Source: Lentisphaerota bacterium (GTDB lineage: Bacteria; Verrucomicrobiota; Lentisphaeria; Victivallales; Victivallaceae). Taken from it: DNA of 43,662 nt. The DNA lies in the NCBI GenBank assembly GCA_015061495.1, contig SUWL01000015.1, positions 1 through 43,662 of the forward strand. The letters run 5' to 3'. Of the stretch, positions 413 through 40,766 are shown piece by piece; the first letter of the stretch is position 1, and every line of letters starts with the position of its first letter. The notes below the pieces were generated by a model that worked only from the letters and a program-made list of their open reading frames with translations, searched no databases and was not told the origin of the DNA. The position numbers and the translations under genes are program-made.

Positions 413-488
413 TGGCATCTCCAATGGGATTCGAACCCATGTTGCCGGGATGAGAACCCGGTGTCCTAGGCCTCTAGACGATGGAGAC
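413..488 (-). tRNA. tRNA-Glu (anticodon CTC)
   Basis: The reverse strand folds as a 76-nt cloverleaf including an encoded CCA (413-415). Acceptor GTCTCCA pairs with TGGAGAT (a G-U closing pair), the anticodon stem CCGGG/CCCGG holds the loop TTCTCAT with anticodon CTC, and the T-arm carries GGGTTCGAATCCC. The D-arm matches bacterial tRNA-Glu (GTCTAGAGGCC). Its 3' end faces the integrase gene at 1-302, so it is the likely attachment site of an element to the left. It is divergent from gltX, which encodes the synthetase that would charge it. Confidence 0.95.
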
Positions 489-14536: not shown

Positions 14537-14613
14537 TGGCGAGAGAGACGGGACTCGAACCCGCAACATCCACCGTGACAGGGTGGCACTCTAACCAGTT
14601 GAGCTACTCCCCC
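14537..14613 (-). tRNA. tRNA-Asp (anticodon GTC)
   Basis: 77-nt cloverleaf on the minus strand with encoded CCA (14537-14539). Acceptor GGGGGAG pairs with CTCTCTC (two G-U pairs), the anticodon stem CCACC/GGTGG encloses CTGTCAC with anticodon GTC, and the T-arm is GCGGGTTCGAGTCCCGT. The discriminator G fits aspartate tRNAs. Confidence 0.95.
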
Positions 14614-34654: not shown

Positions 34655-35127
34655 AAAAACTTCTCATCCATTTCCTTACAGTGCTGACAGTTGCGCTTTT
34701 ATCAACATCCTGTGCCGGATTCAAAAAGCAGGAGATCAAACTGCGGGAATTTTCCCGGGAGGATGAAAATCTCGCCCGGACAAAAGCAGCCGTTTTCGCA
34801 GAAGCCTTCATTCAGGCTCTGAAAAATAATGACTTCGCCATCTGGCAGAAGCATCTCCCCGCATCACCGTCACCGGAAAAACAGATCACCGGAGAAAAAT
34901 TCACCGCCATGCGCCGGGAACTGCTTGATCACTTCGGCACATTCGTGTCCGGCAGATATCTCGGAGATATCACCGACGGAAATCTGCGCACCTATCTCTG
35001 GAAACTGACCTTTTCCGGAAAAAAACAGGATAAAAACGTCATACATGAAATAATATATTTTGTCCGGGTTTTCTGCGAGGAGGGAAAACCGCCGACAATA
35101 AGCCGATTTGGAGTAAAACTGCTTTGA
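34651..35127 (+). CDS. Predicted lipoprotein, function unknown
   Basis: 158-residue exported protein. The N-terminus has K-K, a hydrophobic core and the lipobox S-T-S-C with Cys 22 as the lipidated residue. The rest (residues 30-158) is charged and alpha/beta in character, with A-E-A-F-I-Q-A-L-K-N-N-D-F near residue 50, reminiscent of NTF2-like or DUF4878-type small domains, though I cannot assign one. It overlaps mutM by ATGA and the next gene by TTGA. Confidence 0.78.
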   Translation: MKKLLIHFLTVLTVALLSTSCAGFKKQEIKLREFSREDENLARTKAAVFAEAFIQALKNNDFAIWQKHLPASPSPEKQITGEKFTAMRRELLDHFGTFVSGRYLGDITDGNLRTYLWKLTFSGKKQDKNVIHEIIYFVRVFCEEGKPPTISRFGVKLL

Positions 35128-35921
35128 TTTACAGAAAATTTGTCGAACAGGAGGAGTCGCTCGTCCCCGAAAACCGCCGCCGGCGTAAAATTGAGCATAC
35201 CGAAAAAGTTCCCCGTAAACGCGGTCGTAAAAAATGTCCCATGACCCTGCGTAATTACCTCTTTCTGCGTGCCCTCTATCTGGCGGCACGGGACGGGGAC
35301 ACCTCCTCCAGGGAGGGTTTCGCAGAAGCTCTCGGACTGTCGTACAAACTGGTCAACACCATGGCATCTGCATTTGAACGCATCCACCCGGATATCTGCA
35401 AAGCGCAGGCAAAACTGCAGCAGGAACGGGATGATGCATTCTGCCGCCCGGAAAATCTCACCGCCGTCCCCATGCTGGAGATCGACGATATCCTGCAACG
35501 TGACTACCGGGAAAAAGCCCCCCTTGAGGGAAAAAAAGCCGCCGCGATCGTCAAAGAACCGCGCTTCGGAGAAAGACTCCATTACTTCGGATTTTTCATG
35601 CCGGACGGCTGTATGGTCAATGACGGCATCTGCAAAGGCGACAAGATCATCGCCGCATCCAATGTGCGCCCGACCAACGGAGATCTGGTCGCCTGCCGGA
35701 TCCCCGGATTGCACACCGTCACCGTCCGCCGTTACGTCACAACCGGCAATCCGGCGCTGTTCGACCTTTACGAGGGCGGCACCATCAATCCCATGCCGAC
35801 AGTCTGGAGCGATAATGCGATCTACGGTGTGGTCGTGGAAGTGCAGCGTTCCTACTGGCCGCGCCGGCTGCCGCTGCAAGATCTTCCGGAAAAATACCGG
35901 AGAGAGGAGTTGCCATGGTAA
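35124..35921 (+). CDS. LexA/S24-like protein with altered catalytic dyad
   Basis: 265-residue protein. A basic N-terminus (residues 17-37) precedes a possible helix-turn-helix (about 40-86), then a segment that aligns with the LexA/UmuD peptidase fold: D-G-C-M-V-N-D-G-I-C-K-G-D (161-173), then N-G-D-L-V-A-C-R-I and T-V-T-V-R-R-Y. Where LexA has the serine nucleophile (G-D-S-M) this protein has Cys 163, and where LexA has the lysine (T-V-K-R) it has Arg 202. No Ala-Gly cleavage site is evident. It may be a non-cleaving regulator. The TTG start at 35124 overlaps the previous stop as TTGA, with GGAG at 35110-35113; the first ATG is too far in. Confidence 0.7.
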   Translation: MIYRKFVEQEESLVPENRRRRKIEHTEKVPRKRGRKKCPMTLRNYLFLRALYLAARDGDTSSREGFAEALGLSYKLVNTMASAFERIHPDICKAQAKLQQERDDAFCRPENLTAVPMLEIDDILQRDYREKAPLEGKKAAAIVKEPRFGERLHYFGFFMPDGCMVNDGICKGDKIIAASNVRPTNGDLVACRIPGLHTVTVRRYVTTGNPALFDLYEGGTINPMPTVWSDNAIYGVVVEVQRSYWPRRLPLQDLPEKYRREELPW

Positions 35922-36316
35922 AGAATTTTCTCATCATGTTTCTGGCATTTGCCGCTCTGACCGCATGGGCGGACGACAACGTTTACATCTGCCGCAAATG
36001 CCGCACTGTCACCATCAAAGAAACCACGCCGTCATACAGTTACTGTCCGGCAAAAAATTCTCATCAGTGGTTTCGCGCCGCCGTTGCCGGCAATGATATC
36101 TATCAATGCCGCAAGTGCCGTCTGGTACTTTTTTCCCGGGGGCTGCCATCGTACTCATACTGCTTTGCCGGCAACAGTCACAGCTGGCACAAACTCGGCA
36201 TCCTCGGGCCGGAACACTATCTCTGCCGCAAGTGCAATATCCAGCTGCACACCAAAGGCCGTCCCTCATACAGCGGCTGCCGCAATAACAGTTCGCATCA
36301 ATGGCACAAACTTTAA
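35915..36316 (+). CDS. Secreted protein with three CCCH zinc-ribbon-like repeats
   Basis: 133-residue protein with a signal peptide (residues 1-20, ending A-W-A-D). The mature part is three tandem modules of about 37 residues, each Y-x-C-R-K-C-x9-P-S-Y-S-x-C-x5-H-x-W. Spacing is identical in all three: C-x2-C, 14 residues, C, 5 residues, H. This geometry suggests one bound metal per module. I do not recognise a named family. The ATG overlaps the end of the LexA-like gene by 7 bp and follows GAGGAG, so the two are co-translated. Confidence 0.82.
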   Translation: MVKNFLIMFLAFAALTAWADDNVYICRKCRTVTIKETTPSYSYCPAKNSHQWFRAAVAGNDIYQCRKCRLVLFSRGLPSYSYCFAGNSHSWHKLGILGPEHYLCRKCNIQLHTKGRPSYSGCRNNSSHQWHKL

Positions 36317-36328
36317 GGAATTTTGGAT

Positions 36329-36847
36329 ATGAACGAAAAACTCGACTACATTTTCCGCAGGAGAAGTATCCGCAACTACACCGGAGAAATGCTCCGGCCT
36401 GAACACTTTGAACACCTGCTTCAAGCTGCCATGGCAGCCCCGTCAGCCCGCTGCTGTGATCCGTGGGAATTTGTCATCATCGACAACCGTCCCGCCCTTG
36501 ACCGACTCGCGCAGCTGCTGCCCAACGGTCCGTTTCTCAAGGAGTGCGGCGGAGCCATACTCGTCTGCGGCGACCTCAAAAAAGCCTATCAGGAATCCCT
36601 CTCTTACCTGCTGCAGGATTGCACTGCCGCCCTGCAGAATATTCTGCTTGCCGCCCCCGCGCTGGACTTGGGCGGCTGCTGGCTGGGTATCCACCCCAGA
36701 GAAGAGCGCATCAGTGCGGTAAGAGAGCTGTTCACCCTGCCGGCAAATATCATCCCGGTCGGCTGCTGTGCGTTGGGATTTCCGGCGGCAGAGCTGCCGC
36801 CGCGCACCCGTTACGATCTGACAAAAATTCACAACAACCATTGGTAA
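36329..36847 (+). CDS. Nitroreductase family protein
   Basis: 172-residue FMN-dependent oxidoreductase, a different branch from the one at 21706-22260. The signatures R-R-S-I-R-N-Y (residues 12-18), A-A-P-S-A-R-C-C-D-P-W-E-F-V-I-I-D (about 38-54) and L-G-G-C-W-L-G-I (about 115-122) are visible. Small nitroreductases of this type often act on NAD(P)H-linked reduction of unknown metabolites. AAGGA lies 9 bp before the ATG at 36329; an in-frame TTG 6 bp upstream is less likely. Confidence 0.88.
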   Translation: MNEKLDYIFRRRSIRNYTGEMLRPEHFEHLLQAAMAAPSARCCDPWEFVIIDNRPALDRLAQLLPNGPFLKECGGAILVCGDLKKAYQESLSYLLQDCTAALQNILLAAPALDLGGCWLGIHPREERISAVRELFTLPANIIPVGCCALGFPAAELPPRTRYDLTKIHNNHW

Positions 36848-40408: not shown

Positions 40409-40766
40409 GGGGGTGTTCCGGATTCGACCGGCGAAGGCACTGGGTAGATTGCATGCCGAGGATGACCGTTGGCCTCGTTAATCACCGGTTAAAACAATAA
40501 CTGCGAACGAAGAGTACGCATTGGCGGCATAATCCCGCCACGTCGCTGCGCCTGACCGGGTGCTAAGGTGTAAGCGGCGTCAATCAGCGCCCTGGCATAA
40601 ACTTCCGGCATTCGGAGTTTTTGCGAGATCAAAGAATGCCTGTTCTGAAGAATCGCCTGTCCATTGGCGAAACAGAGGACGAAAAACAATTGAAGATGGA
40701 ACAAGCATGTAGATGTCTTCATCATACCTCGTCGGGACGCGGGTTCAACTCCCGCCACCTCCACCA
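40409..40766 (+). ncRNA. ssrA: Transfer-messenger RNA (tmRNA)
   Basis: 358-nt tmRNA that rescues stalled ribosomes. The 5' GGGGGTG pairs with CACCTCC near the 3' end, giving the G3-U70 pair recognised by alanyl-tRNA synthetase, and ACCA is encoded. The T-arm is GGGTTCAACTCCC. The tag frame begins at GCG (40503) and reads ANEEYALAA with TAA at 40530-40532. It is one-piece, with pseudoknot-like pairing around the tag. Confidence 0.96.

Follow-up and report, generated by a model that had tools for sequence, protein, structure and literature searches.

Among the described families, the Zn_ribbon_8/FmdB domains (PF09723, TIGR02605) come close to the protein analysed here, P0001, as they share with it the YxCxxCG knuckle, the P-x-x-x-x-C spacing and the small size of the ribbon. 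However, Zn_ribbon_8/FmdB domains have two CxxC knuckles, whereas the second knuckle in every module of the P0001 family is C-x5-H-x-W. Rubredoxin-like domains (RUBY_RBDX, NF045720) are likewise small metal ribbons with a CxxC knuckle, but their site consists of four cysteines that bind iron, whereas the modules of P0001 combine three cysteines with one histidine and are arranged in tandem with a shared strand. Eukaryotic CCCH fingers of the tristetraprolin type, which have the spacing C-x8-C-x5-C-x3-H, also occur in tandem with three cysteines and one histidine per module and differ from P0001, where the spacing is C-x2-C-x14-C-x5-H. At the level of gene organization, the phage defence system Brig3-BapA of the UDG superfamily, in which BapA is a two-beta-barrel DNA glucosyl hydrolase (PMC13160076), pairs a UDG-superfamily gene with an accessory gene in a two-gene unit within a defence island, an arrangement shared by some relatives of the module. 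Unlike the module, BapA is not a zinc ribbon, and it was rejected as an unrelated protein; moreover, the gene for P0001 has no adjacent UDG gene.

How does this locus compare with these systems? The gene for P0001 lies in a stretch of 43,662 nucleotides from a Lentisphaerota bacterium (GCA_015061495.1, contig SUWL01000015.1), hereafter called the window, and an earlier note had described its product as three identically spaced CCCH modules following a signal peptide. Translation confirms this arrangement, the leader being judged by eye (Table 1). All three modules fit [YFW]-x-C-x2-C-x9-P-x4-C-x5-H-x-W at a 39-residue period and yield the consensus Y-x-C-R-K-C-x9-P-x4-C-x5-H-x-W, reading YICRKC-x14-C-x5-HQW, YQCRKC-x14-C-x5-HSW and YLCRKC-x14-C-x5-HQW, respectively. 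The distance from HxW to the first cysteine of the next module is always 12 residues and the period exactly 39 residues or 117 bp; 13 positions are identical in the three copies, and identity to module 1 is 55% for module 2 and 42% for module 3. Two matches to the tandem DNA pattern of the module are present in the window, against none in 100 dinucleotide-preserving shuffles. All nine cysteines of P0001 occupy module positions, three per module, and its sequence contains no His- or Cys-rich tracts beyond the modules. The module part carries a net charge of +14 (K+R minus D+E), the family median being +6. The leader comprises an MVKN n-region, a hydrophobic core and, by eye, an AWA-D cleavage-type site, and a hydrophobic leader is retained in the homologues; from these sequence features P0001 is very likely exported. 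Elsewhere the window contains a tmRNA gene and two tRNA genes.

Table 1. Position of the gene for P0001, its parts and other features of the window
Feature	Coordinates	Strand	Remarks
LexA/UmuD-like (S24) gene, upstream neighbour of the CCCH gene	35124..35921	+	Overlaps the CCCH ORF by 7 bp
Overlap of LexA-like and CCCH ORFs	35915-35921		ATGGTAA
ORF encoding P0001, the probably secreted CCCH protein with three modules	35915..36316	+	133 aa; translation starts MVKNFLIMFLAFAALTAWADDNVYICRKC
Signal peptide, about residues 1-20	35915..35974	+	MVKNFLIMFLAFAALTAWAD; likely cut after AWA; by eye; leader in homologues
Module 1, residues 23-52	35981..36070	+	C26, C29, C44, H50; W52
Module 2, residues 62-91	36098..36187	+	C65, C68, C83, H89; W91
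Module 3, residues 101-130	36215..36304	+	C104, C107, C122, H128; W130
Nitroreductase gene	36332-36847		
tmRNA gene	40409-40766	+	Rfam 178 bits
tRNA gene	416-488	-	
tRNA gene	14540-14613	-	

The earlier note had also raised the possibility of a new zinc-ribbon family, and this suggestion stood: no entry in Pfam, NCBIfam, PHROG or the PDB covers the whole module, and no curated family searched describes it. Zn_ribbon_8 gives weak matches with 35 of 71 relatives (scores listed, 13.7-21.5 bits, versus a cut-off of 34.4), which points in the same direction as a zinc-ribbon reading, and does not match P0001 even at E 10. DUF7695 (PF24749) matches 12 of the 71 relatives, one of them, L093, at 28.1 bits versus a cut-off of 25 over 22 of 58 profile positions, and does not match P0001; identity with this family was rejected as a partial match and cross-hit. 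The second zinc finger of IFT121 (PF23145, Zf_2nd_IFT121), a eukaryotic ciliary family, matches residues 20-45 of P0001 at 26.4 bits versus a cut-off of 25, but the match ends before the histidine ligand and 66 of the 71 relatives have none (5 of 71 match), so that it is read as a cross-hit to the short knuckle and identity was rejected. The PDB was searched by sequence, using P0001, one of the two-module relatives and a profile of the family as queries, and gave no convincing match. With the predicted structure described below, the best Foldseek match in the PDB had an E of 2.4, and VIA-align gave no match with a Z as high as 2; the weak Foldseek matches (E above 2) were to single zinc ribbons, rubrerythrin, rubredoxin and zinc subunits of RNA polymerase and are not evidence alone. 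The literature search likewise brought up no description of the module. The kind, a zinc ribbon, is already known, and neither the tandem Cys3His family nor the exported form with three modules nor the recurrent nuclease and UDG context was found described in the libraries and papers searched.

AlphaFold2, provided with an alignment of 25 three-module proteins, returns a model of P0001 with a mean pLDDT of 90.4 and a pTM of 0.78 that beyond the leader contains strands only. Since the strand behind each HxW and the first strand of the following module are continuous (residues 52-65 and 91-104), the model suggests that P0001 is a rigid rod. Each module contains an odd number of cysteines and all nine lie within modules, which favours one Cys3His metal site per module over disulfides. 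As three cysteines cannot pair into disulfides and the fourth invariant ligand is a histidine, ligand conservation and cysteine parity make zinc the likely metal. A zinc-ribbon fold is therefore quite probable. The resemblance to a metal ribbon remarked upon in the earlier note is borne out by the invariance of the CCCH ligands and the confident all-beta prediction, with zinc as the presumed metal.

Homologues of P0001 from the same taxonomic family are 33-53% identical to it, and the clear ones consist of a hydrophobic leader and two or three modules. A search of 100 related genomes gave significant matches in 11, including the genome of the window itself and two marginal cases. Matches occur in 15 of 387 genomes phylum-wide (E 1e-5), and within the genus 5 of the 34 genomes carry the gene, so that its distribution is patchy. 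Scanning 84,980 bacterial and archaeal species with a fixed one-module DNA pattern yielded at least 118 matching stretches, and the module is found in at least about 120 proteins from at least nine bacterial phyla and one huge phage. The matches listed include Bacteroidota, Lentisphaerota, other Verrucomicrobiota-like groups, Spirochaetota, Desulfurobacteriaceae, Lachnospiraceae, Hydrogenedentota, Planctomycetota, Elusimicrobiota and Gammaproteobacteria. The phage, an uncultured one with a genome of 636 kb (LR756504.1), encodes a leader-plus-two-module protein (L014:7929-8216) close to a DNA ligase gene. In viral contigs the tandem pattern without Lys matched 15 times, the sole real ORF (L021) being the same sequence as LR756504, and a module-profile scan of these contigs gave no match; nor did the plasmids searched contain a relative of the module. 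Because the one-module pattern itself selects one perfect module per locus, conservation was judged on two sets, the homologues found independently of the pattern and those modules of each protein that the pattern had not selected, and the six positions C, C, P, C, H and W hold in both. They are invariant in the 71 proteins aligned and throughout the modules of the 25 three-module proteins, the spacing of 14 is kept in 259 and the spacing of 5 in 260 of 268 modules, and the 14/5/12 arrangement is nearly constant. Cysteines and histidine, on whose conservation the earlier note had made its reading depend, are completely conserved in the homologues of P0001.

Where in the cell do the relatives reside? 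Most complete two-module proteins (43/53) lack a leader, and a hydrophobic leader precedes 30 of 36 three-module proteins, 16 of these 30 having an alternative internal start that makes the leader ambiguous. From their sequences, two-module relatives mostly look cytosolic and three-module forms often secreted. The remark in the earlier note that such modules are unusual outside the cytoplasm is thus fair for this module, although secreted three-module forms recur in rumen Bacteroidales and Lentisphaeria. Other architectures occur as well. In Chitinophagaceae and relatives a leader and an SH3 domain (SH3_3 match, E 3.3e-8) are followed by a transmembrane segment and two modules (L032, L033, L072, L084, L092, L110, L183), and by positive-inside reasoning these modules would face the cytoplasm. 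One form is lipoprotein-like (L180), and a set of secreted low-complexity proteins rich in proline, glutamine and arginine ends in two divergent modules (L169-L175: L169, L170, L171, L174, L175), with tandem paralogues in two genomes (G252 and G268).

What could such a module be used for? The genes next to the relatives provide a lead. Among 49 non-redundant same-strand immediate downstream neighbours are GmrSD_N (5), PDDEXK_4 (5), UDG (3), PLDc_2 of the PLD type (2), and DUF1643, RNase_T and an SNF2/ResIII helicase (one each), and among 40 upstream neighbours PDDEXK_4 and GmrSD_N (two each) and SNase, Endonuclease_NS and Methylase_S (one each). In a control set of 90 distal genes of these loci GmrSD_N, PDDEXK_4, UDG, PLD and DUF1643 are not among the top families, where up to one of each is possible as single-member families are not all listed; HsdM and integrase genes do occur among the distal genes. 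Within about 250 bp of a module gene lie 10 of 13 GmrSD-like, 14 of 16 UDG-A and 7 of 8 UDG-B ORFs as well as about half of the 24 PDDEXK_4 ORFs, almost all of the nearby ones in the fetched loci being encoded on the strand of the module gene. The hosts with DNA-acting neighbours include Hymenobacter, Tenacibaculum, Bizionia, Algoriphagus, Verrucomicrobiaceae, Planctomycetota and a spirochaete, and the 36 loci with adjacent DNA-acting genes are redundant, falling into 10 clusters (single linkage at 70% identity). Examples of presumably cytosolic pairs are Hymenobacter fodinae, where a PD-(D/E)XK gene accompanies the module gene (L101), Algoriphagus vanfongensis, where a UDG-like gene does so (L118), and Bizionia, with a GmrSD-like gene (L095). 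In the same taxonomic family as the window, the gene of a secreted module protein follows an SNase gene at a distance of 6 bp in one genome (L037) and is overlapped by an upstream Endonuclease_NS gene in another (L076). PADLOC models matched by neighbours include SspE, HEC-05, HEC-06, PDC-S26 and DrmC. An out-of-sample check did not yield an independent replication, because the loci were largely from contigs already in the set, L181, L182 and L185 lying on those of L122, L048 and L070, respectively; the four new loci had no nuclease or other DNA-acting neighbour. Two UDG-superfamily-like families with motifs such as LLVVGESHY and VMFLLKD recur beside module genes in several phyla (L042, L059, L064, L070, L075, L088, L094, L109, L111, L118, L128, L129). 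A non-nuclease context was also observed, with a leader-plus-two-module protein adjoining the gene of a conserved corrinoid (B12-binding) protein (L065, L113, L138).

The nuclease context of the relatives suggests that the module may help enzymes that cut or edit DNA. Each module of P0001 probably binds one zinc through three cysteines and one histidine, so that the protein would be a stiff and strongly basic rod of three ribbons, located in the periplasm or extracellularly. With less support, this rod would act as an adaptor for nucleic acid, another polyanion or a partner protein, and would assist a DNA-acting enzyme. Such a reading is based on the GmrSD-like, PD-(D/E)XK and PLD nucleases and UDG-superfamily proteins adjoining the relatives and on the SNase and the DNA/RNA non-specific endonuclease in the two genomes of the same family. 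Taken as a whole, an exported basic zinc-ribbon rod that assists a DNA-acting enzyme by binding nucleic acid, another polyanion or a partner falls just short of an even chance; an adaptor function for nucleic acid or polyanion in particular, derived from the neighbours of the relatives, is a tentative assignment. Fold and export are well supported, whereas ligand and enzyme link are drawn from the relatives. Against an adaptor speaks that the neighbours of the CCCH gene in the window are the LexA-like gene and the nitroreductase gene, without an adjacent nuclease. Furthermore, many of the neighbouring nucleases are cytosolic and some of the module proteins next to them bear a leader, so that the partners may occupy different compartments. 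The redundancy of the loci, the four new loci with no DNA-acting neighbour and the empty fold searches of the PDB also weigh against it. As to a role in phage defence, many relatives are located with defence genes and the gene in the window is not.

Alternatively, P0001 may be a rigid zinc-ribbon spacer or an adaptor between proteins of the envelope with no role in nucleic acid binding, and the nucleases would be adjacent because of shared mobile or defence islands. The patchy distribution (1-4% of genomes), the SH3-transmembrane, lipoprotein-like and low-complexity secreted architectures, and the distal HsdM and integrase genes are consistent with this; however, DNA-acting genes concentrate at the adjacent same-strand position instead of being spread across the loci, and the enzyme families next to the module vary while the module persists, which leaves the spacer appreciable but rather unlikely. 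A more far-reaching version of the enzyme link, in which the module is an accessory subunit shared by unrelated DNA-acting defence or processing enzymes (GmrSD-like, PD-(D/E)XK, UDG-like, PLD) and the exported form serves to catch DNA that is entering or lies outside the cell, for the benefit of a secreted nuclease in some species, is unlikely as stated. Metal buffering or storage in the periplasm, which the earlier note had proposed and which a small exported protein with three likely metal sites and invariant CCCH ligands might bring to mind, did not withstand the comparison. P0001 has one four-ligand site per 39 residues and no further tracts of histidine or cysteine, the invariant, structural-looking tryptophan and proline and the linker spacing indicate a fold, no metal transporter or metalloregulator is among the recurrent neighbour families, and patchiness within the genus would be odd for metal housekeeping; storage is hence quite improbable. 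Even less probable is that P0001 is a redox or disulfide protein, or carries electrons like a rubredoxin, perhaps acting with the downstream nitroreductase. The CxxC motifs in an oxidising compartment, the nitroreductase gene and the very weak Foldseek matches to rubrerythrin and rubredoxin would fit, but three cysteines and one invariant histidine per module resemble neither pairwise disulfides nor a four-cysteine rubredoxin site, two genomes (G020, G028) have the nitroreductase and lack the CCCH gene, and a third (G011) has no nitroreductase gene between the CCCH and kinase-like genes.

Could P0001 then be a functional partner of the LexA-like protein, as the earlier note had suggested from the close pairing of the genes? 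The overlap that it reported is real: the CCCH start codon lies within the last LexA-like codons, and a Shine-Dalgarno-like AGAGGAG is found just upstream of it inside the LexA-like gene, which together imply translational coupling. In addition, the order LexA-like gene followed by CCCH gene recurs in G007 and G011. The orthologue in G007 (L141:4887-5318) is frameshifted within modules 2-3, through either decay or an assembly error. The syntenic locus of MutM, DUF3887-like lipoprotein, LexA-like and dolichol-kinase-like genes, with the MutM glycosylase gene two genes upstream of the CCCH gene in the window, is found in 8 genomes of the genus; however, the CCCH gene is present at 3 of these 8 LexA-like loci and missing from the other 5, homologues outside the genus have other neighbours and none beside a LexA-like gene, and the two proteins should reside in different compartments, one in the cytosol and the other exported. 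The pairing reflects local history and no conserved unit, and the partner is not obligate, so that a shared function has become highly improbable. The LexA-like S24 protein itself has a cysteine in a PD-(N/G)-C-M motif in all seven aligned copies of the genus. By eye, this cysteine is apparently at the position of the S24 catalytic serine and an arginine at that expected for the catalytic lysine, and because of these replacements the protein is probably not self-cleaving. Its profile finds no relative in the PDB at E 0.01.

The preferred reading of P0001 as an exported adaptor rod is testable, since the named cultured strain Victivallis vadensis DSM 14823 carries a three-module homologue (L124). 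In the module, an invariant metal-site signature is conserved across at least nine phyla and recurrently linked to nucleases and enzymes of the base-excision type, and it is undescribed in the curated libraries searched. If the module serves those enzymes as an adaptor, several candidate defence genes would become approachable together, and its exported form would be a further example of a stable zinc ribbon that functions outside the cytoplasm.
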